This document shows, piece by piece, positions 1-49,218 of a stretch of 64,000 bases of DNA. The notes beneath the pieces are model-generated. The model searched no databases and had not been told where the DNA came from. It was given only the letters and a program-made list of their open reading frames with translations. A program made the position numbers and the translations under genes. Source of the stretch: Physcia stellaris (Eukaryota; Ascomycota; Lecanoromycetes; Caliciales; Physciaceae); assembly GCA_018902385.1 (NCBI GenBank), contig JABSSW010000037.1:124001-188000 (forward strand), in the 5' to 3' direction. Numbering within the stretch: the first letter of the stretch is position 1; each line of letters begins with the position of its first letter.

Positions 1-3000
1 TGAAAAATCTGATTCGTTGACGACGATTTGAAATATTGAAATCAACGTTTTGAACGATTTTGAATTTGTTGTCGAAAAATAAATACGATAAAAATCGTTT
101 ATCACGTCGCGAACATTATCGAATTTTTCGTTATCGACATAATATCACGTTCGATCATGAAATCAATTCGATCAATTGACACGATATTGAAAACGATTGT
201 AATGATATCGAAATTTTAAAATATCGTTCATTTTTCATTCGAAATTCTCGTTGACTATGACGAAATCGAAAAATTCATTGATTTGATTTTCGAGAAAATC
301 ACGAAAATCTTTGCGAAAAAATCAACAATGAAACACATCGTAAATTCGCATGATTTCTGACAATTCGAATCGATAAAAATTGTTTTTACGTTTTAATATT
401 TTGTACGAATTTAGTTTTTTGTCATCAAACTTGTCAAATGATTTGATCGTTTTGATATTTCGTCGATTCAAAAAAACGAAATTTTTTTCGATGTATTTCA
501 CGATTTTTCGATGTTTGTTGATTTGAATTGTTATACGTTTTTGAATCATTTTTGCATGATTTCGTACGTAATTGAAAATATTTTGTATCGTGTCGATGAT
601 ATTTTTTGTTTTGACGATCAAAAATCGCTTTTTCGTTGTAATATACGAAATAAAATTCAACGAAAAATTCATGCGAAAATGAAATTTTTTATTGATAAAA
701 AATGATGATAATTTTGTTGTTGCAAATATCGCGTTGTTGTTTGCAAATTCGATCATGAACAATCAAACATTTCAATCGTTTTGCATGTAATTGCAATATT
801 GTCGCAATTGTTTTCGATATTTTGATTGATTTTCTCGATTTGCTCATCGATTTTGAATGAAAAACGATGAAAAATTTACATTTAATGTCGAAAATTTTGC
901 AAAATGTTTGTCAAACGAATGATATGAATTAAAATTCTCGATTTGACGTTATAAAAAAAAAATAACTCATACGTGCGAAACACGTAATTGATAAATATTT
1001 TGATCGTGATTTTCGCATTTGTATTTTCATCGTCGACGATGCAAAACACGTAATGACGTTTTTTATTAAATTTGTCGATTATCGTGCAAATGACGTTGTA
1101 ATCGTGAACGTCGAACAATTCGATGATAAAATTCATAAATATGTCGATTTAACATTGCAAAAAAATGATCAAAAAGTAAATAAATCATTTTTTCGATTTC
1201 GAAAAATTTTAATACGTTGACATTCATAACAATTGCGTACGTATCGACGAACGAATTTGCGCATGTTGAATCAATAATAATCGCGACGTATAAAATTTTT
1301 CATACGATTGAAATTTGAATGTTTCGAAATCGAAAATTCGTGAATTTTTTTGAAAAAATCAACGAATAAAAAAACGTCGACAAACATTCATAATCGATCA
1401 TTTCGATATAAAACATCGTTTTTTTCATTGCAATTTCGTAAATCGATTTCGTTCATTGAAATAAAATTTTGTTCGATAATTTTACGATACGTCGTGCAAT
1501 CATCGTCAATTTTATTGACGATTAAAACTCGTTCGTAAATAGATTCGTCAAATTTTATCGCGTGAATTTCGAATCGTTTTGAAATGAACAATATTTGTTT
1601 TCGATATTGATGTCGTTTATCAATTTCGTTTTTGAATCGAAAATCAAACATACAAATCAAAACATTTGTTTTAACGTTTTGAATTTCGAATTGAAATTGA
1701 ATGACAATGTTGAATTTCGAAAAATTTTTTTCAACGTGTTTGACGAAAAATGAATTTCTTTGACGTCATGAAAATTTTCAGTTTTTGTGATCGATGAAAA
1801 TTTTGATCGATTTTTCGATGTTTTCGAATTCAAAACGTCAATGCTTTAAACAACGAATAATGATTAATAATTTTTTGTCATAAATTTCGTAATTGCATTC
1901 GATTGAAATCATGTTGCGATTGTAAAAAACAACGAAATGCAACATTTTTTCGTCGTCGTATTGAAATAATATTTTTGCATTGACGTAATCAAAAAAATCG
2001 ATTTTCAAAATGATTTGTTTGATTCGATCGTAATGTCGTAATATAAAAATTTCAGTCATCGTTTTTTTGAAAAAATTGAAAATTTTTTCGATTTTTTCAA
2101 TTCATTCGAAATTCACAAACTTTTTGATCATTCGAATGAAAATTCGAATTTTTTTGAAAAATCACGAATGAATCGTTTGTAAAAGTTGACGAAATTCACG
2201 AAAATTTGTATTTTTTTCAAATTCGTAAAACGTTTTCAATTGACAATGATTTTTATTTTTTTCGAATTCATGCGAAAATCATTTATCGATAATATGACGT
2301 TCAAAAATGTCATTTTTTTTGAAAAATTCGCATTTTTCAATATTCATTTGTAATTCGATTTTTTTGAGTTTTTTCAATATTTTACGAACGTGAACGATGT
2401 GCTTTTTTTTGAATTTGTTGTAAATGAAAATATCATTTAAATAAATTTGACAAAAATCGTTCAAAAAATTGAACAGCAAATCGTTCATGTAATGTTGTCA
2501 ATTCGCGAATTCGTTGATCAATTCGAAAAATAATATTCGATATTTGTAAGATTTCATAAAAATAACGAAAATGATGAATTTTTCATTTTTTTCATTCATT
2601 CGAAGTTTGTTGAAAATCGATATAATATTCAGCTTAATCAAATATTTGCAATTTTGCATTTTGATTAAAATTTTTTCGATCAAAAAAATGAAATATCGAT
2701 TGCGTTTCGTGATGTGATTAAATCGTCGATAATTCACACACAAACGCAATTGATCGTTTGATTTGATTGCAAATAAAACGAACGAAACGTATGCAATTTG
2801 ATTGAATACGATAAAATTTTTTTGAAAATTATTTTTCAAATATTTTTTGAATTTTTGAAATTTGAATTCGAACAGAAAATATATTTTGTTTCGAAACAAT
2901 GAATTGTTATCGTTTAGAAATTCGATTTTGTGATCGTAAAATCGATGCGATGACAATTCAATTGTTTTTTAAAATCGAATATCTTTGACAAATGTTTGAA

Positions 3001-5780
3001 ATATTTGAGTATTTTTTCATTATGCCGCTATGCGTTCAAAAATCGATTTGATTTGTTCGTGTTTTAAAATTTTTTTGATCATGACACAATTTTCAACGAT
3101 TCAAAATTTGTTCGCAATGTTTTGAACGCGAAATCGATTTGATTGATCGTAATGAAAAAACATTGTATTTTTTGTTTTTTTTTTGAAATCGACGAATAAA
3201 TAAAAGAAAATCGCATCAATCATCGCGATATTCATTGAATCGTTTGAATTCAATTTCGATGATGAAAAAATTTCGAATTGTTGTTTTTTGATTTTTCAAC
3301 GTTTATTGCGTTGTCTTTTCAAATTTCTTTTTTTGATAAATGTCGTTTTCGTAATTGTTGTGATATCGATTTTTGAATCATTTGATTCGATAATTGACGA
3401 TTCGTCATCGTCATCGACGTTCGAGTGAATTAAACATTCGAAACATTTCGAATCGAATACATTTGATTCATTTTCAATTGTAAAAAACAGAAATTTGATT
3501 TTGAAACGAAACAAAATGATATATCGAAATTTTATTATCGTTATATGTTTCGAATCGTTCTTTTGCGATAATAGAATATCACGACGTCAATTAAATACAT
3601 TTCATCGACGATTTGATCGAGAAATTTTCAAACGTCGAATTTGAACAATTTGATTGAATATATTGTCATGATGATTGCATTTAAACGATTTGAAAATCAA
3701 TTTATCGTAAATTATGTTCAATATGATTTCATGTTTGTTCATTCACGATTTTTCTAAAATTATCGAATGATTATTCAAATCGATGATTAACAAAAAAACG
3801 ATCAATTCGAAATGCAATTTTATCGTTAATTTAAAATATATGACATGAATTATTGATAAAATTTGACGATCGTCGAATTCAATCAATGATTTCGATTTCA
3901 ATAAAAATACGAATTTCATGTTCAACATGTTGCATACAAATTGCGCGATTTTTTTATCAATGAATATATAATCAATTGCATCAATGTTTATTAAAGTTTT
4001 TAATTTATGTTTATTATCGTTGAATGATAACGTACAATTAATGATTAAAAATCGTTTGATGAAAAAATCAAACAAATCATCGTTGTGAATAAAAAAAAAA
4101 TTTAAACATTCATCAATCGCGTTTTTGATGTGAATTGTTAATTTTTCGAATCAAAATCATTTGATTCGACGATTAAATTCATGTACGATATTTGCATTTT
4201 GTGTCAATGACGTTTTTAATGTTTGTAATCGTTCGAACATTTTTTTTCAAACGTGATTCAATTCGTTACATGTAAAACATTTGTTCGTGACGATCAATTT
4301 GTCGATCATCGAGTCACGAATTTTGATTTCAACGTTGAAATGAAAATGAATTGTAAATTTCACGAAAAAAATCGAAATAACAAATTTCGTAAAAACATCG
4401 AAATCGAGACGACAAAAATTGATTTGAATTGAAACAATTCAAAACGTTGTTGACGTGTCGCGATTTTTTTTTTTTCGAAAATTCGATTGTCGATTGTATA
4501 TTTGTTGCAAAATGATTCGAATTTCATCGAACGTGATGAATTCACGTGAATATACATTTATCGTTTTTTTCAAATTTCAAAAATTTTGTTCATCAATTTT
4601 TCGATTTTGATGATTTTGTTATAATCAATTGAATTGTTAAAACGAAAAAAAAAATGAAATAGAAAAATTGAAAATTTTGAATGTTTATGATCAATGTTCG
4701 AAATTGATTACGCATATTGCGTTTGAAATCAAAATTTTCGTAAATAATGTTCAAAAATTTTAACATCATATGTCAAATTTTGAAATGATTCATATCAATA
4801 TCACGAATCGATTGTATATGATCATCGACATCATTTTCAATTCAATCAATCACAATAATGATTGCGATCATGTTCGTGTCGTAATGATCAACGTTGATTG
4901 TCATTTTATCGTGTATTTTTGTTTTTCAAACACGTCAAATGAATTTTATTTCATCGATAAATTTAAAAAATTTGAATGTGCTTTGAAACGTCGTTTGTTT
5001 TTTTGAAAAAATTAATTACGTTGATTTCATCGTCGTTTTTTTTATCGTCGACGTTCGAGTTTCGTGCACGATCGCGAATTTTGATCAACAAAACGTCATG
5101 ATTTTTTTTCAAAAAAATGTAATTTTTTGTTTGATCAAAAATAAATCACGTTGTTTTTCGTATTCGTTTTTCAAAACATTCAATTTTCGACGAATTTTAT
5201 TTAATTCGACATTCGTATTGATCAGCTCGTCACGATCGACGTTGACAATATTGTACAAATTTTGATATTGAATCAAAACGTTCAAATAATTGTCACGATC
5301 GATGCGTAATCGATCAAATTTTTTAAAAAATCGACGATTTTATGATTGATTCATCATTTCAATTGATCGATGATGACGATATTCAAAAAATGAATGATTT
5401 TTTCATTTTTCATTTTTATGAAATCGATCGTTGATACAAATCGACGACGTTTGAATTGATCAACGAAATTTTCGTCAAAAAAATTGTCGTTAATTTTATG
5501 CAACATACGATTCACGTTGACGCGTAACGTTTTGAAACGTTGTTTCATCGAAATAAAAAATTCGAAAAAATTGTTTCGTGATGATTTCGAATCATAACTG
5601 AAAATGAAAAATTGAAAATGATAAAAAAAAAAAAAATTAATCGAATCAGTTTTCGTTTTTTATCGTCGAAAATTTCGTCGTTGTTTCGTCAAAAAAATTT
5701 TCAAATCATTTGTTTGATCAACAGAATTTTTCGTCGTTTGTTTCGTCAAAAAAATTTGATCGATTTGAGATTTTATTTTT
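1..5780 (-). mobile_element. Ty3/gypsy LTR retrotransposon fossil, internal region
   Basis: Minus-strand fragments keep the order of a Ty3/gypsy element. From high to low coordinate they are gag-like (about 5.6-4.4 kb), a CCHC zinc-knuckle trace near 4.27 kb, aspartic protease (about 4.1-3.7 kb), reverse transcriptase (about 3.0-2.3 kb), RNase H (about 2.06-1.84 kb), the linker before integrase (about 1.66-1.39 kb), integrase core (about 1.14-0.88 kb) and the integrase C-terminal part (about 0.76-0.32 kb). The protease-RT-RNaseH-integrase order is what separates Ty3/gypsy from Ty1/copia. The copy is thoroughly broken, with many tens of disruptions, and is AT-rich throughout. The left end runs off the window, so the 3' LTR is not seen. 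It looks old, or intensely mutated soon after arrival. Confidence 0.85.
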
Positions 5781-6040
5781 GAACGTTCGCGTATCTCGAC
5801 GAGCGATAAAAATGAAAATTTATTGTAATATCATGAGTCGTGCTTGAATAAACGTATTATTGACTAACTAGACGAAGACAATAAATCTGCAAAAACAAGT
5901 AAATACAAAATGATGAAATTGCAAACAAAATGCGAACGTCAAATTTCAAATCACGCTAATTTCGTCAAAAAATTAGAACATAACTCGATTTAAACATATT
6001 TGTTTAATCATTTATCATATCAACTATTTATCTGCCAAAT
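5781..6040. other. Less-mutated AT-rich island between two fossils
   Basis: This stretch breaks the pattern of its flanks. CT, AG and TA dinucleotides are normal here (for example around 5830-5900 and 6000-6040), whereas both flanks almost lack CT and AG. It could be the 5' LTR of the gypsy element on its right side or host spacer sequence. No coding sequence is seen and no matching LTR copy lies in the window to decide. Confidence 0.4.
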
Positions 6041-8215
6041 CTATCTGTCAGGCATGTTCGTAACATGCATGAAATTGATGATGTAATCGAAATATTTGTA
6101 TTGTACACTTTTGACGCGCGAGTAATTTATCAAAACATGAATTCGAACAATCAAAAGTTTTTCGACGATCGTGAATTTCGATAAAAATCGCAATACAACG
6201 TTCGAATTCATAAAATTTTGTACAAAAAACGTTTTCACATTTTTTTTTTGATATTTTTGATACATCGATCGCATCGAATTTTTTTTTTTTTAAATTTGAA
6301 TTTGACGATGAAACGTTTTTCGTTGCAAATATCGCAAATTTGACGTTTAATGTTTTTCAAATTTGCGTGAAATTCACGAATCAAATTTCAATCAATTTTG
6401 AAAACGATAATTTTTTTCAAAAATTTATTGTCGACACGTTGTTGAAAAATTTTTCAAAACAAATTATCAATTTCATCAATTATTCGAACATCATTTTTTT
6501 TCGTGAATTCGTGTGCAAAACAATTGATTTTGTCGATCATGTTTTGTACAAAAATTTCGTGATGTTTTTTCACATATCATTGTAATTTAACATCGTCATC
6601 GTGATCGCAATAATAACAAAAAAATTCGTCGTCAAAAAATCGACACGAAATTCGAACGAAACGACACAATTCGTAACGTTTGTAACGTGATTTTTTTGTT
6701 CGTTTGCGACGTTTGAAAAAAATTAAAAACGTGAAAACAAAATGATTCAAAAAAGCAAATGTAAAAAAACGACGCAATTCGAAAAAAATCGAAAAAAATA
6801 AATAAATGATGAATTATTGATTTGAATTCGTCGTTGTGTTTATCGTTCGTGACGCGTTATTTGTTTTTGACGACGTCGTGTAATTTTTTTTTCGAAAAAT
6901 TTTTTGATCACGAAATATTTTATTGATTGATTCGATTGATTTTGTTTTGTTGCGAAAATGATTTGATTTTTTTTGGAATTGTTTTGTTTTGAATTTTTTG
7001 ACATACGTTTTTTTATTGATTTTTCGAAATGTGAAAAACGAATCAACGTTGATTGCGTTATTGACGATATTAATAACAAAATCAATCAAATCGTTCAAAA
7101 ATTTGCGTTTAACGCGAATTTTTGCAAACGTATTCGTATTAACATGTTTCGAAACAAATATATTGTCAAAAAATGAAAAATTACAATGTGAAAAAAAATG
7201 TAATAAAAATTGAAAAACAAATTTCACGAAACGCGTAATTTTAACAACAAAATTTTAAAAAACATTTTTGAAAAAATCATTTTGAATTATTTTCGATAAT
7301 CGCAAACACGTCAATCATAAAAATCGCGAAAAAATTTCACGATTCACGATATCGTACGTTTTGATATTTAAAAATCGAAATGCAAATAAAACGTAAAAAT
7401 CAAAATGAAAAAAATCGAAACAAACGTGAATTGAAAACAATACGTGTAAAATTAAAACATTTATTAGAAAAAAAAATCAAACAAAAAAAATCGTTTAATA
7501 AAATTTTCGAATAAATTTGTTTAACGCAAAATACATTATTGAACGCAACAAATTCAACAATACATTCGACATATTGTGTCATTGTTGACATCGTACGTTT
7601 AAACAATCAAATTTTGATCGAATATACAAATAAAAAAATTCAATTTTAAAACAAACAAAAAAAAAAAAATTCGAAAAAAAAAAATCGAAATGAAAATTCA
7701 ATAAAATTGTAAAATTAAAAAAATTTCAATTGAAACGAATAATTTCAAAAAAAATTTTTTTGAAACGATGCACATTATCAATGAAAATTTAAATAAAAAA
7801 AAATAAATCAATAAACAATTGATTTTTTTCGAACGAATGATATTTGAAACAATCGATTAAAACAAAATGAAAAATATAAAAATAACAATTTTTTCAAATT
7901 ATGAAAAAAAGAAAAAAAAAATGTACGATCGAAATCAAAAACGTGAAATTCAAATGTTGATCAAAAAATTTCATCAACATCACAACATGAAATCGAAAAC
8001 GTTCAACGAAAAAAAAATAATAACAATTTTGAAAAATCGTGAACATGACGAATTTCATTTCATTGTTTTAAAACAATTGATTATTCGAAAAAAACGATTG
8101 CAAAACATTGAAATTCAACAATTGACAAAATTAAAATTGAAAATAATTAGTTTATTGTTTGAAAAAATTAATTTTCGTATTGAATCGTTTACATGATTGA
8201 ACAGAAAGTGATTAA
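6041..8215 (-). mobile_element. Helitron-like (DUF6570/helicase-N) remnant, mutated
   Basis: A minus-strand fragment at 6274-6041 matches the conserved start of fungal Helitron replicases, the DUF6570-type block: an acidic/aromatic lead, a leucine-x-x-valine-glutamate-glutamate-like segment, then an alanine-arginine-valine-histidine-like segment and a glutamine-tyrosine-lysine-tyrosine box. Upstream on the same strand (7227-6577) are R/K/Q-rich fragments such as those preceding this domain in Helitrons. The Rep and helicase parts that should follow at lower coordinates are missing, so the element is truncated near 6.0 kb where the next segment begins. The 7.2-8.2 kb part is almost pure A/T with CpG and CpA. 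No intact reading frame remains. The family call rests on one block. Confidence 0.5.
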
Positions 8216-8299
8216 TCAGAATTTTGTGTCGACATTTTGCAACAGAATTCAATTCATGAAGTCGTTGCGCTGAGCAAATAGATCGTTTTAGTTCTAGAG

Positions 8300-8462
8300 T
8301 AATCGTAGTCACCTGGAAGTGGGTCACACCCAGTAATGGGTCACGGGTTAGGGTTACCTGCTTAAAAGCCAGAACCTAACCCTGGCGGATATCTATTTTT
8401 GCCGGTAACCCTAACCCGTGACCCATTACTGGGTGTGACCCACTTCCAGGTGACTACGATTA
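8300..8462. repeat. 163-bp perfect hairpin: MITE-like inverted repeat
   Basis: Positions 8300-8358 are the exact reverse complement of 8404-8462 (59 of 59 bases by eye), around a 45-bp spacer. The outermost dinucleotide of each arm is TA, so the element may be a 161-bp MITE with a TA target duplication, as made by Tc1/mariner/pogo transposases. Each arm holds one TTAGGG next to a GTGACCC-like box. It has normal GC content even though it abuts the AT-rich block; RIP-type processes usually ignore such short repeats. No coding capacity. Confidence 0.85.
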
Positions 8463-8980
8463 ATCCTTTCTGTACAGTAGGAAGGCAGTCGAGAGCCCCT
8501 CGTGCCCGTGCAGACGTGGCAGACAAACGGTCAAACACGTGCTCTTCGAGTGCAGCAAGTTGAAGGAGCTTCGGAGGGGGCTATGGACCGACGAGGTCCG
8601 AAAAGCGAAATGGGGGGAGTTGAAATTGGCGGACGTGCTGACCAACCCGGTCAGTTTGAAGAAGGCGGCGAAGTTAATAGAGGAATCCGGGCTCATTGGC
8701 TATTTAAGAGCCCCATTCGAGGACGACGAGGAATAGCGGATGCGGAGGAAGTGCACTGGAATGGAAAGTTTCAAACAGAAAGGGAGTTAGAGGAGGCCAT
8801 GGGGGTAATGGTGCTTGAAGTGGCCTGCTCGAACAGAAAAACAAAACACCAAGGGGTAAATTAGTTTGTATAGAGCCAAGAACCTCCTAGAGGTGATTGG
8901 CTCGGTTAGTTTTTAGCCGCATAACGGACCCCAGACGGGGTCGGTTCGAGTGCTTAATGAATTAATCAATCAATCAATCA
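8463..8980 (+). mobile_element. 3' end of a Tad1-type LINE, 5'-truncated
   Basis: From about 8480 to 8736 one plus frame encodes the C-terminal tail of a fungal non-LTR retrotransposon ORF2. It has a Cys-Pro-Cys followed by His-Val-Leu-Phe-Glu-Cys zinc knuckle and then a basic helical tail ending in an acidic Glu-Asp-Asp-Glu-Glu and a stop at 8734-8736. A 3' UTR follows with the typical 'ACGGACCCCAGACGGGGTCGG' style of text, ending in a short tandem repeat (AATC units, about 8955-8980) as LINE tails often do. No reverse transcriptase remains: the copy is cut at the hairpin on its left. Its base composition is not AT-mutated, unlike the elements next door. Confidence 0.75.
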
Positions 8981-9785
8981 AGCGCAACGGCGGCCGGCAC
9001 TCTTAAGAAATGATAAGGTAAGATATCTCCAAGACTTAGCAAAGCTGGGTTTGCAAGGTCACCGTCGTCACAAATAATACGCTATGAAAGGCTGATCGAG
9101 AAGGGCTTCTCATGCCTACTATCTAGAGCGGTGGACAATACAGAAGAGATTTTCCTCAGCCTCCAGACCGATCCACGAAGGACAGCATATTAAGGATGGA
9201 CATATCACAAGGTCTCTCCTAGTGCGAATGCCCATCGAGGCTTGTATGTCTGTATATCGAGACGTCTGGTGTATGATCCGGCCAGCGTGCACCGCCTATG
9301 CAAGAAGCACCTACCAAAGGCTCTGATGGGCGGTATTCGTACCAAATGCCGATTAACTGATAACTCCTCCCTACCTACGTGGTCAGGCAATGGAATTGAC
9401 ATATGTTTGAATCAATCTCCCTAGGTAGAACCTAGTGAGCGGGAAAAGATTCTCCAGAATCAAGAAGAATGGGGTCTGAACACTCCCCAAAGCGGGTGCG
9501 TCTCGTCTCCCCTGCATAGGCACACCTGTCAAGTAAACCGAAGAACTGGAAAGCTTGTCTTATGTGGTCAATTAGAAATATCGATCAAGTCCCATCACAG
9601 CGTTTCATTTGCTCTCCTTTGCATCAAGTCTCGGATAATGCACACTTTGTTGTTCCTTGTATGTCTTTCTGCATGTTGATACGATCTTTCTAGCTTCCAA
9701 GATCAGGTAATACCAGACGCTCCAGAATCATGTACGCCACCTCAAATCGTCCACAATCTCGGGTTCTTCTATAGCACAATCCATC
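8981..9785. other. Non-coding stretch upstream of the HET gene
   Basis: No supported gene. Short open frames near 9205-9424 lack similarity I recognise. It probably contains the promoter and leader of the HET gene that starts at 9786. Confidence 0.6.
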
Positions 9786-46765: not shown

Positions 46766-48406
46766 TCAAGGCCGACCCTCCGCCTTCCTCCTCTCCTTCT
46801 TTTCCTTCGCCCTCCTCATCTTCTCCGCCCACTGAACCTTATAAACCAAACTCCTCGCCTTTCTCGCCTCGGTATACTCATCCCCCTCCCCACCCACCAC
46901 CTCCTCAACGCCCCCATCGTCCCGCCACTCCCAGAACCCTTCCCCCTGCCCCTCCCCTCCAGCCACCCGGACCTCCTCAACCCTCTCCCTCTGAAACTCG
47001 CCATAATCCTCCTCATCCTCGCTCACCTCGCCCACCTCCTCAACCACCAACGCAGCCCCACAAGCAGGCCCAAACCCAAACCCCAAATACTTCGCCGCCC
47101 TCGCGCCCCTCGCCTCCTTCGCGCGCTGCCTATCCCCCGGACTCAGCACCTGGGCGCTCAGCCTCGGATGCGTGTTCCGCGCCCGCTGCCGCTGGACCCA
47201 GGTCCACGGATTCGCCGGCAGCGCCGCGAAGTAGTCCCCGTGGTGCGCGCCCCAGTCGAGGTGGATGACGTAGCAGGGCAAGATGTGCGCTCTGTGGAAG
47301 ACGATGTATTCCATGCCGCTGAGGCCGACGTGCGAGGTCGCGCCCTCGAGGGGCCGGTCGCGGGCGCGGAGATTGTCGAGGCCGGAGACGCGCGCCGCGA
47401 CGCCCATGTGCGTGGCGCACACGAGGAGTTTCAGGCCGTCGTAGAGGCTGGGGAGGGTTCGTGATGCGGCGTTGGAGCTGTAGGAGAGGGCGAAGTGCGC
47501 GGAGGGGGAGGAGTAGATGCCGCGGCCGTAGGTGCTGCCGCAGCGGATGGCGTTCGGGGTGTTGTCGAGGGGGTTGAGGTCGCCGGGGAGGAGGAAGCCG
47601 TTGCGGACTATGGAGGGGATGACGTGTCGCTGGGTGCCGTGGAAGGTGAGGTGCGGGGTGAGGAGGTGGTTGATCATATCTTTCTTGGTGTCGAGGCGGG
47701 AGCGCTGCTCGATGGGGATGTTTTTGCGGAGGTGCGCTGAGGAGAAGGAGGAGAGTTGGGCGCGGATCTGGTGCGTTTGGGAGTTGAACTCGCGGGTCAG
47801 GTCGCGGCGGATTACTTTTTCGATGTGCAGGACTTTGAACTCGGAGGGAACGAGAGCGCAGATTTGCTCGGGGGTTTTGCCTAGGATTTCGAGGATCGAA
47901 TCCACAGTTCCTGCATCGTGATCAAGGGTCTTTGGATCTGATGATAGGAGCGAAGGTGGAAGCCCTTTGGAGTTCCGCCAGTACTTTTCATCCGCTCTGA
48001 AATCCTTCAAACGTGAAATGGTGGCAGTGATAAGGTGGAGTGCAGTCATTGGAAAATCGGCAGATTCCAAGTTGTCACACTCGGCTCGGTTTCTCCATTC
48101 GTCTGCTAGACTTGGCTTTTCATCGTCAAAAACGATCTGTCGCAGCTCCTCTCTGAGGCCATCAATAACAGCTCGAGGTAGGGTATTGTTGGTTGTCTCG
48201 AAGGTGAGAGGCTTGACCGGATAATGATTCCCGGTGACGATCTCCAAAACTAACTCTGGATATCTGAGGGTAAATCCCTGATGTAGCTCATCACTGTAGC
48301 GTTGCTTTTCGGGAAGTATTGTCTGGTCTACCAGGGCATCGATTTCCTTTGCACGAACAAAGTGAAGCTCAACAAGGTCTTCGTCGGACCAAACCTCTGA
48401 TACCAT
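46766..48406 (-). CDS. RWD domain fused to PARP-type ADP-ribosyltransferase fold
   Basis: Single exon of 546 residues from the ATG at 48406; the frame is open upstream but without ATG. Residues about 5-100 look like an RWD domain (Glu-rich start, then 'HYPVKPLTF' as the YPxxxP signature, then 'AVIDGLREELRQI'). Residues about 245-390 carry a PARP catalytic signature: 'LTFHGTQRHVIPSIVRNGF' with His256, 'STYGRGIYSSPSAHFALSYS' with Tyr298, and 'GMEYIVFHRAHILPCYVIHL' with Glu366, that is, a full H-Y-E triad. The C-terminal 110 residues are acidic then basic and low-complexity. Ubiquitin-conjugating-fold plus PARP fusions are known in fungi; an RWD version would bind substrates or adaptors instead of ubiquitin. 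Activity is inferred. Confidence 0.82.
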   Translation of the reverse strand: MVSEVWSDEDLVELHFVRAKEIDALVDQTILPEKQRYSDELHQGFTLRYPELVLEIVTGNHYPVKPLTFETTNNTLPRAVIDGLREELRQIVFDDEKPSLADEWRNRAECDNLESADFPMTALHLITATISRLKDFRADEKYWRNSKGLPPSLLSSDPKTLDHDAGTVDSILEILGKTPEQICALVPSEFKVLHIEKVIRRDLTREFNSQTHQIRAQLSSFSSAHLRKNIPIEQRSRLDTKKDMINHLLTPHLTFHGTQRHVIPSIVRNGFLLPGDLNPLDNTPNAIRCGSTYGRGIYSSPSAHFALSYSSNAASRTLPSLYDGLKLLVCATHMGVAARVSGLDNLRARDRPLEGATSHVGLSGMEYIVFHRAHILPCYVIHLDWGAHHGDYFAALPANPWTWVQRQRARNTHPRLSAQVLSPGDRQRAKEARGARAAKYLGFGFGPACGAALVVEEVGEVSEDEEDYGEFQRERVEEVRVAGGEGQGEGFWEWRDDGGVEEVVGGEGDEYTEARKARSLVYKVQWAEKMRRAKEKKERRKAEGRP

Positions 48407-49218
48407 GATCGCACCGAGTAGAATAAACGTTGTGATGGTGTCTTGTTCAAATAGCCTACACCATCTGAGGACAAGCGGACCCTCGCTTATAAAAATGGGG
48501 CTGATGACTGGAAAGGATGGACTTTCAGAGGGATGAGATTTGGGATCAAAGACTTCAGTCGGTAAAGGAGAGAGTAAAGAAGAAATCGGAATTACTGTGG
48601 ACAGACAGAAATGACTTCCGTAGCAAAACAGACATGAGTGGAAGGCATGAGTCACAAGCGGAAGCGTGCGGCCGGAACATTTGGCAAGGCTAAAAGTGGT
48701 GAACGGCTGTTTGAAAAAGTCATATCTAGTGACAAAGCGAATGTGCTCGAGAGCTCAGAGGCTTATCATTCCAATGACTGAGCTGCAATCTGTGCTGTAG
48801 AAATCGATCGTAGATTGGGCGTTGCCCATATTTGCCGACGACCGAACCTAATTGATTTGAAGATTTCTTCTCAGGATTGCACGGAATCTTGCACAGATTC
48901 GGATAAGTTTGAGGATTATACGTCTTTCTTGCTTGTTTTGAACAATTCTGACAAAAGAATACCTGATATAATAGTCAGTTCTAGCGGGTTTAGATCTGCA
49001 AGGATGGAGCATAATCCGGGGTCAATAACGTGATGTGGGGTAGCGTATGGTCACGAGACAACCCCGCATCGTTTCTCCCTCCTGTTGACCCACCTTCGAG
49101 TCGTACCTGATCCTCTTGAACCATTGCTCGTAGCTTGATCATCTAGCAACACACTTCGTCAAGACTTGAACACAAAACAAGCAAAGCATCCCACCGGACC
49201 AGCAACACTCGACTCAAC
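48407..49218. other. Divergent promoter region
   Basis: Upstream of the PARP-like gene (minus) and the DUF6699-like gene (plus). No supported gene. The bases just before 49219 form a CA-rich leader. Confidence 0.55.

Follow-up and report, generated by a model that had tools for sequence, protein, structure and literature searches.

Repeat-induced point mutation (RIP) in Neurospora crassa, a system with RID and DIM-2, converts C:G to T:A on both strands of repeats and attacks the four contexts in the order CpA > CpT > CpG > CpC (PMC5496416). Classical RIP thereby raises TpA/ApT to 0.89 or more (PMC2621366), and a survey published in 2025 that spanned 1,239 species concluded that CpA preference is common to RIP-like defences (PMC12543289). 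Target choice is regarded as almost invariant in RIP, and the tools for its detection depend on this assumption. Physcia stellaris is a lichen-forming Lecanoromycete, and here we analyze a 64,000-bp stretch of its genome (hereafter, the window; contig JABSSW010000037.1, abbreviated C37, positions 124,001 to 188,000), whose first 8.2 kb are AT-rich and contain mutated transposable elements. In the repeats of this fungus almost all cytosines preceding C or T are gone, and the effect is stronger than the original prediction for this stretch, made from the sequence by hand count, had stated.

Statements on the literature, here and below, cover excerpts of the cited reports. In an alignment study of the Tad1 family of N. 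crassa, CpT changes outnumbered those at CpA (PMC2621366), and RIPCAL already includes an index of CpC loss, (CpC+GpG)/(TpC+GpA) (PMC2621366). RIP of Trichoderma reesei, where C-to-T conversion in repeats was shown by crosses, has CpC last in its order (PMC5496416), unlike Physcia. Botrytis, Sclerotinia and Magnaporthe (CpT) and Anisogramma (CpA and CpT) have CpT as a main target and RID-class genes, but CpA is their main or second target (PMC4352252, PMC10998396), whereas in Physcia copies of intermediate mutation load CpA stays at background and CpC is converted first. CpT/ApG has been named the dominant form in RIP-capable control genomes (PMC7882544), CpA with double mutations has been described in Monilinia (PMC8959702), and the covered text of a ten-genome fungal study gives CpA, CpT, and CpG signatures, with the word CpC absent from it (PMC4352252). 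In Microbotryum and rusts (Masc2), C-to-T changes in transposons also follow a strong context, but the target is CpG (PMC4352252), the best preserved context in Physcia. RIP in another lichen-forming Lecanoromycete, Cladonia rangiformis, resembles the process in Physcia in the sharp edges between transposable elements and gene space and in the few unmutated retrotransposon copies, although the GC content of the transposable elements of Cladonia peaks at about 16% (PMC12542154), as opposed to about 26% in Physcia.

The order observed in Physcia is CpC > CpT >> CpA ~ CpG, best read as the reverse of the known preference of fungal repeat-induced mutation. CpC-first RIP did not turn up in full-text searches of the open-licence literature, a scope that leaves aside several papers mentioning CpC and also Clutterbuck 2011, said to survey RIP across filamentous ascomycetes. 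The only CpC-rich figure met in the literature examined is Table 2 for Rhizoctonia solani AG8, a case of hypermutation between nuclei, where C/T single-nucleotide polymorphisms lie closest together at CpC (214 bp, versus 370 for CpG, 422 for CpA, and 491 for CpT) (PMC4014442). Unlike Physcia, this fungus is a basidiomycete, and its hypermutation is described as CpG-biased, affects genes and repeats alike, and also hits CpG and CpA (PMC4014442).

Positions 1–8215 of the window contain only 2 CC, 2 GG, 38 CT, and 44 AG dinucleotides, along with 456 CA, 515 CG, 422 TA, and 1109 AT. The corresponding observed/expected ratios (O/E), taken over both strands, are 0.01 for CC, 0.10 for CT, 1.28 for CA, 3.75 for CG, and 0.37 for TA. 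In the rest of the window, the ratios are normal (CC 0.98, CT 1.07), and GC content is 0.495 compared with 0.26 in the block. In the wider block, up to 10,385 bp pass without a CC or GG. Where the window is unmutated, such runs do not exceed 94 bp, and the median spacing of these dinucleotides is 6. The hand counts behind the original prediction proved correct: positions 241–480 contain 12 CA, 16 CG (given as about 15), 5 CT (given as about 6), no CC or GG, 9 TA, and 29 AT, and positions 6661–6840 contain 14 CG, 6 CA, and neither CT nor CC. Its claim that CpA and CpG survive while CpC and CpT are missing likewise stands, as CpA is not depleted and TpA/ApT, at 0.38, is far below 0.9; the second index, (CpA+TpG)/(ApC+GpT), is 1.39.

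The prediction that standard RIP indices would miss such a block is borne out in 415 AT-rich (GC < 0.36) 500-bp intervals. These do not form a random sample of AT-rich blocks of the genome, because similarity to the window's gypsy element decided which loci were included. TpA/ApT of at least 0.89 is reached in none of them and the second index is at or below 1.03 in 12, so that none passes both cut-offs; among intervals of normal GC content, 9 of 134 do. CC and GG are absent altogether from 390 of the 415 and number two or fewer in 409. AT-rich blocks elsewhere with a normal CpA spectrum, named in advance as counterevidence, were not encountered among these loci, since the intervals from other loci share the spectrum of the block.

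The direction of change can be read from a family of Ty3/gypsy retrotransposons. A DNA search with a 1.8-kb query from the window's element yielded 40 copies at 89–100% identity among the best 40 of 384 candidate places, plus two additional short reverse matches at 69% identity. The genome also contains two unmutated relatives (L047 and L048). Two further GC-normal, unmutated loci (L046 and L049) have long open frames, as do L047 and L048, and by eye represent another gypsy element and a reverse transcriptase resembling that of elements without long terminal repeats. We compared 30 mutated copies, including the window's own, with L047; they were selected by similarity to a mutated query, a choice skewed to heavily mutated copies. 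The 1.8-kb core lacks CC and GG completely in 29 of the 30, the window's own copy having one, and CT plus AG range from 0 to 81. Converted sites amount to 13023/13701 for CpC (95.1%), 11509/12817 for CpT (89.8%), 1969/13354 for CpA (14.7%), and 1006/13059 for CpG (7.7%). Both strands are affected equally (C>T at 51.7% of reference C, G>A at 52.3% of reference G), and all other changes amount to 0.3–3.2% per reference base. In two of the seven copies with the fewest other changes (L031 and L034), conversion is 97% at CpC, 86–88% at CpT, 7–8% at CpA, and 3.3% at CpG, whereas a copy of the most mutated class (L015) has lost 30% of CpA and 12% of CpG. The preference for CpC and CpT is thus strong but not absolute, as CpA and, less so, CpG rise above background in the most mutated copies. 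A count of contexts by majority base among the copies, made without an outgroup, gave 161 polymorphic columns for CpT, 143 for CpA, 63 for CpG, and 7 for CpC. It reveals CpA and CpG sites that vary between heavily mutated copies, but it is blind to CpC, which has already gone in nearly all of them, and was therefore replaced by the comparison with L047.

The order of contexts emerges from copies of intermediate load. Four of these, picked among the matches closest to L047 (38 of the best 40 of 229 candidates were mutated), together have 649/738 CpC (88%), 539/928 CpT (58%), 29/854 CpA (3%), and 16/803 CpG (2%) sites converted. CpC exceeds CpT with a Fisher p-value of 3e-43, and CpA and CpG are no different from the divergence between L047 and L048 (13/387 and 7/393; Fisher p = 1.0). 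Expressed as -ln(1-f), the values are 2.12 for CpC, 0.87 for CpT, 0.04 for CpA, and 0.02 for CpG, the latter two representing background. Comparison with unmutated relatives in the same genome hence supports a C-to-T process aimed at C before a pyrimidine (CpY) and sparing CpG and CpA, as predicted, with two refinements: CpC precedes CpT, and CpA and CpG are also reached in the most mutated copies. In one copy, L050, 15 of the 24 retained CC/GG are clustered within about 270 bp (positions 152–423), as though a single tract had escaped.

The same data bear on enzymatic deamination. Hypermutation of retroelements from C to T is generally known as typical of APOBEC/AID-like enzymes acting on single-stranded DNA or on reverse-transcription intermediates. 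In the intermediate copies, the context is set by the 3' base, and the base before the C has little effect (ACC 161/179 and TCC 202/230, versus TCA 6/314 and TCG 5/310). Further, each of eight copies checked is converted on both strands, with CpT conversion differing between top and bottom strand at p < 0.05 in two (L050, 0.02; L020, 0.009; Fisher). Both observations disfavor APOBEC-like editing, which we regard as highly improbable. A profile search for APOBEC_N gave no match, and since the controls likewise remained without a match, absence of such genes is not thereby shown.

The process is not confined to gypsy elements. The block ends in a second, unrelated repeat, which aligns at 90% identity to a less mutated copy on contig C78 (L054) and, over positions 6509–8199, to a GC-normal relative at C2:1300873-1302890 (L055). 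Relative to the latter, the window's copy has lost 172/178 CpC, 206/215 CpT, 29/226 CpA, and 12/200 CpG, and the copy on C78 has lost 164/183, 135/216, 14/228, and 11/201, respectively. Action on two unrelated elements, as had been proposed, is thus supported by their common spectrum. Nine further reverse transcriptase stretches were chosen as outliers or from other matches. In seven of them CC O/E is at most 0.32, with five of these having no CC at all; in L057 (CC 0.43, CT 0.86) and L058 (CC 0.32, CT 1.00) much of CC is lost and CT is near normal. Among the best 150 of 527 candidate reverse transcriptase matches, internal stops comprise 250 TGA, 33 TAA, and 3 TAG, and ten matches have no internal stop. 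Such an excess of TGA would be expected if TGG turns into TGA via GG to GA while CpA, and with it CAA and CAG, is spared. A profile search for 5.8S found one place in the genome and is uninformative on mutation of ribosomal DNA.

The published genome comprises 184 scaffolds and 46.57 Mb at 43.32% GC, from a culture grown from ascospores, and the words RIP and "point mutation" are absent from its main text (PMC7513301); the assembly examined here has 147 contigs and 43.97 Mb. Given the published GC content and values of 0.495 outside and about 0.26 inside, around a quarter of the assembly would lie in blocks of this kind. A larger AT-rich block spans C37:110.49-132.2 kb, and the first 8215 positions of the window are its right-hand part; the features of the block within the window are given in Table 1. 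From about 0.3 to 3 kb at least, the block appears to be a Ty3/gypsy retrotransposon with gypsy-type reverse transcriptase and RNase H, an assignment made by eye from the protein; the SH3 piece probably belongs to the same element. Positions 2498–2956 gave no credible Pfam match and were placed as reverse transcriptase by aligning the window copy (L005) to L047. The sharp stop predicted near 8.2 kb is real, the edge of mutation lying within a few bases of the repeat end. Mutated stretches whose copies were sought proved to be repeats, at loci picked by homology, and the one edge tested coincides with a repeat end.

Table 1. Features of the AT-rich block in the window (positions are those of the window).
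Feature	Position	Strand	Evidence and remarks
AT-rich block, GC 0.26, near-saturated C-to-T at CpC and CpT on both strands	1..8202	.	Dinucleotide counts; extends left past the window to about C37:110,490
Tf2-1-like SH3 piece	322..762	-	Pfam PF24626, E 3.6e-5, under curated cut-off, weak
Mutated Ty3/gypsy RNase H piece	1838..2059	-	Pfam PF17919, E 2.7e-12; PF17917, E 1.6e-7; same family as unmutated L047/L048
Mutated Ty3/gypsy reverse transcriptase	2279..2956	-	Pfam PF00078, E 2.5e-7 for 2279-2488; remainder by alignment
Second repeat, unrelated to the gypsy element	6301..8199	- (relative to L054, L055)	DNA alignment to copies
Edge of mutated block	8200..8207	.	Second-repeat homology stops at about 8199; retained CT/AG first at 8203 and 8207

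The edge is also where damage in a sun-exposed lichen can be weighed. Ultraviolet light is generally known to yield C-to-T changes at pyrimidine pairs, and this thallus came from a park bench (PMC7513301); slow deamination of methylated cytosines is a related idea. However, ultraviolet damage also affects C after a pyrimidine, yet TCA and TCG are spared, and either process would have to leave adjoining unique DNA normal across an edge only a few bases wide. The CpG ratio of the block argues against decay of methylated CpG. We therefore consider this origin scarcely credible.

Several local observations accompany the block. At C37:119501-123000 (L038), 22–41 CT/AG per 500 bp are kept, compared with 0–8 in the flanks, yet the stretch is nearly CC-free; perhaps it inserted later and has gone through fewer mutation cycles. 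Directly adjoining the block, at positions 8297–8465, is an inverted repeat of 70 nt that retains CC and GG and has CCCTAACCC/GGGTTAGGG stretches, its arms being 94% complementary and 29 nt apart. It is followed at 8480–8985 by a GC-normal stretch with an AATC repeat at its end, similar by eye to the 3' end of a long interspersed nuclear element. Farther along, the minus strand at 46766–48655 contains a 629-aa frame matching the PARP catalytic domain (PF00644, E 4.8e-7).

Loss of CpC and CpT leaves a mark at the protein level. A mutated reverse transcriptase frame of 264 aa has no Gly, Pro, or Trp; in the unmutated segment there are 11 Gly, 21 Pro, and likewise no Trp. We searched this frame against 5.8 billion proteins and examined the best 120 of 212 matches, which come from ena, jgi, ncbi, and lgn sources: 68 of the 120 are reverse transcriptase frames without Gly or Pro, and 102 have three or fewer. 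As the query itself lacks both residues, these counts prove the existence of such frames and not their frequency. Trp occurs in 36 of the 68, which suggests that a gene caller read TGA as Trp. The matches P0232–P0351 comprise nearly Gly/Pro-free frames from jgi and ncbi with identities near 40%, a few of them located on contigs of 300–745 kb, and may represent other hosts with the same signature. These frames also bear on an assembly artefact. The assembly was made from Nanopore reads with about 30x Illumina coverage (PMC7513301), repeats are hard to polish, and base-calling errors at modified cytosines could in principle mimic conversion. Such an origin seems extremely unlikely for two reasons. 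Firstly, this one assembly also contains gypsy family members that are unmutated or of intermediate load. Secondly, the ena, jgi, and ncbi sets, whose sequencing platforms are not given, contain reverse transcriptase frames likewise depleted of Gly and Pro.

A search for genes of the RID and DIM-2 type, including divergent versions, was part of the original prediction, and both were found. Three C5-methyltransferase genes with long open frames are present: RID-A (contig C5), with a long N-terminus and a methyltransferase domain matching G7Y79_00005g016670 at 100%; an additional divergent RID-class gene, RID-B (contig C6), encoding 513 aa with splice sites set manually; and a DIM-2-like gene (contig C3), whose open frame spans 1,118 aa. 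RID-B has the C5-methyltransferase domain with the catalytic Cys of PCQ, the motif VI Glu, and QxRxR. In a FastTree phylogeny of 127 domains from 215 sequences, 88 being excluded as short or without the start motif, RID-B pairs with a Heterodermia protein (support 0.92) in a clade of eight that includes metagenomic proteins (support 1.0, stem 0.40). This clade is separate from the two groups into which RIDs of other lichen fungi fall, and RID-A sits among the RIDs of these fungi.

The loop following PCQ sets RID-B apart. According to a position table and 10 of 13 loop sequences, conservation across the other 118 RID-class domains is 99% for D and 100% for N, residues that in our own reading would define the Masc1/RID family. 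RID-B has DFEDKQ, and at the conserved D and N positions the core RID-B proteins have F in all five and K (four) or I (one); RID-A has the standard loop, SPPCQFFSDAHTVMGKDDDMN. HMMER aligns the FED of RID-B to the FED of M.HhaI. The Heterodermia homologue (P0001) matches Pfam PF00145 with an E-value of 6e-44, and its AlphaFold2 model, which is of good confidence (predicted local distance difference test score, 85.6), has as best matches MET1, DNMT1, DIM-2, and ZMET2, and also HaeIII.

We tentatively put forward RID-B as the candidate enzyme behind CpC-first mutation, at nearly even chances. Alternatively, the same RIP-class process might work through RID-A or the DIM-2-like enzyme with a changed specificity, RID-B doing something else, which we hold possible but rather doubtful. 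Both of these genes are present with long open frames; a published table assigns DIM-2 all CpN contexts, with CpT preferred, and describes RID in purified form as lacking methyltransferase activity in vitro (PMC13297926), data that leave the context-setting enzyme open even in the model fungus. On the other side, RID-A keeps the standard loop and groups with RIDs of other lichen fungi, and a CpC-first order is not reported for RID or DIM-2 in the excerpts of literature examined.

Taken together, we consider it likely that P. stellaris has a RIP-class defence that converts C to T on both strands of duplicated DNA under an inverted target rule. Duplicated DNA would be recognized, homology between copies presumably being the trigger, and C would be turned into T on both strands, CpC first, CpT second, and CpA and CpG hardly at all. 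The conversion may take place around mating, and a RID-class enzyme, with RID-B as the best candidate, would carry it out. Two features of classical RIP are observed here, namely C:G to T:A changes on both strands of repeats and a RID-class gene in the genome. Another, CpA preference with the corresponding index values, was tested and is absent, and on this ground the system departs from classical RIP. The process is best read as one that works like RIP in its effects, the inverted target preference being what is new.

Several points weigh against this reading. The spectrum, the order of contexts, the participation of both strands and of several repeat families, the sharp edge where tested, and the three methyltransferase genes are direct observations, whereas we infer the timing, the homology trigger, and the enzyme. 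L047 and L048, the unmutated gypsy pair, share 96% identity across the 1,801-bp query and coexist in the genome, and as the sequenced culture came from ascospores (PMC7513301), such a pair is unexpected under strict RIP of the Neurospora type; the process may be inefficient, recent copies may escape it, or it may no longer be running. The RID-A and DIM-2-like genes could set the target instead, and the deeper placement of RID-B is weak (0.775 for grouping with Eurotiomycetes). Moreover, the 33 TAA stops are unexplained by the CpY rule, one of the nine further reverse transcriptase stretches is near normal (L060, CC O/E 0.84), and the 30 gypsy copies carry the selection skew noted above.

With respect to other fungi, it is possible, although we would put it below an even chance, that a RID-B subfamily with a changed catalytic loop performs CpC-first repeat-induced mutation in more species than Physcia and has gone unseen because the usual indices are built to register loss of CpA and gain of TpA. 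Genome-wide RIP surveys can score a heavily mutated genome as RIP-free, and the combination of TGA-dominated stops with loss of Gly and Pro in reading frames offers a simple screen. With copies graded from unmutated to saturated in a single genome, and with a candidate enzyme that has a clade-specific loop, the determinant of the RIP target base becomes directly testable.

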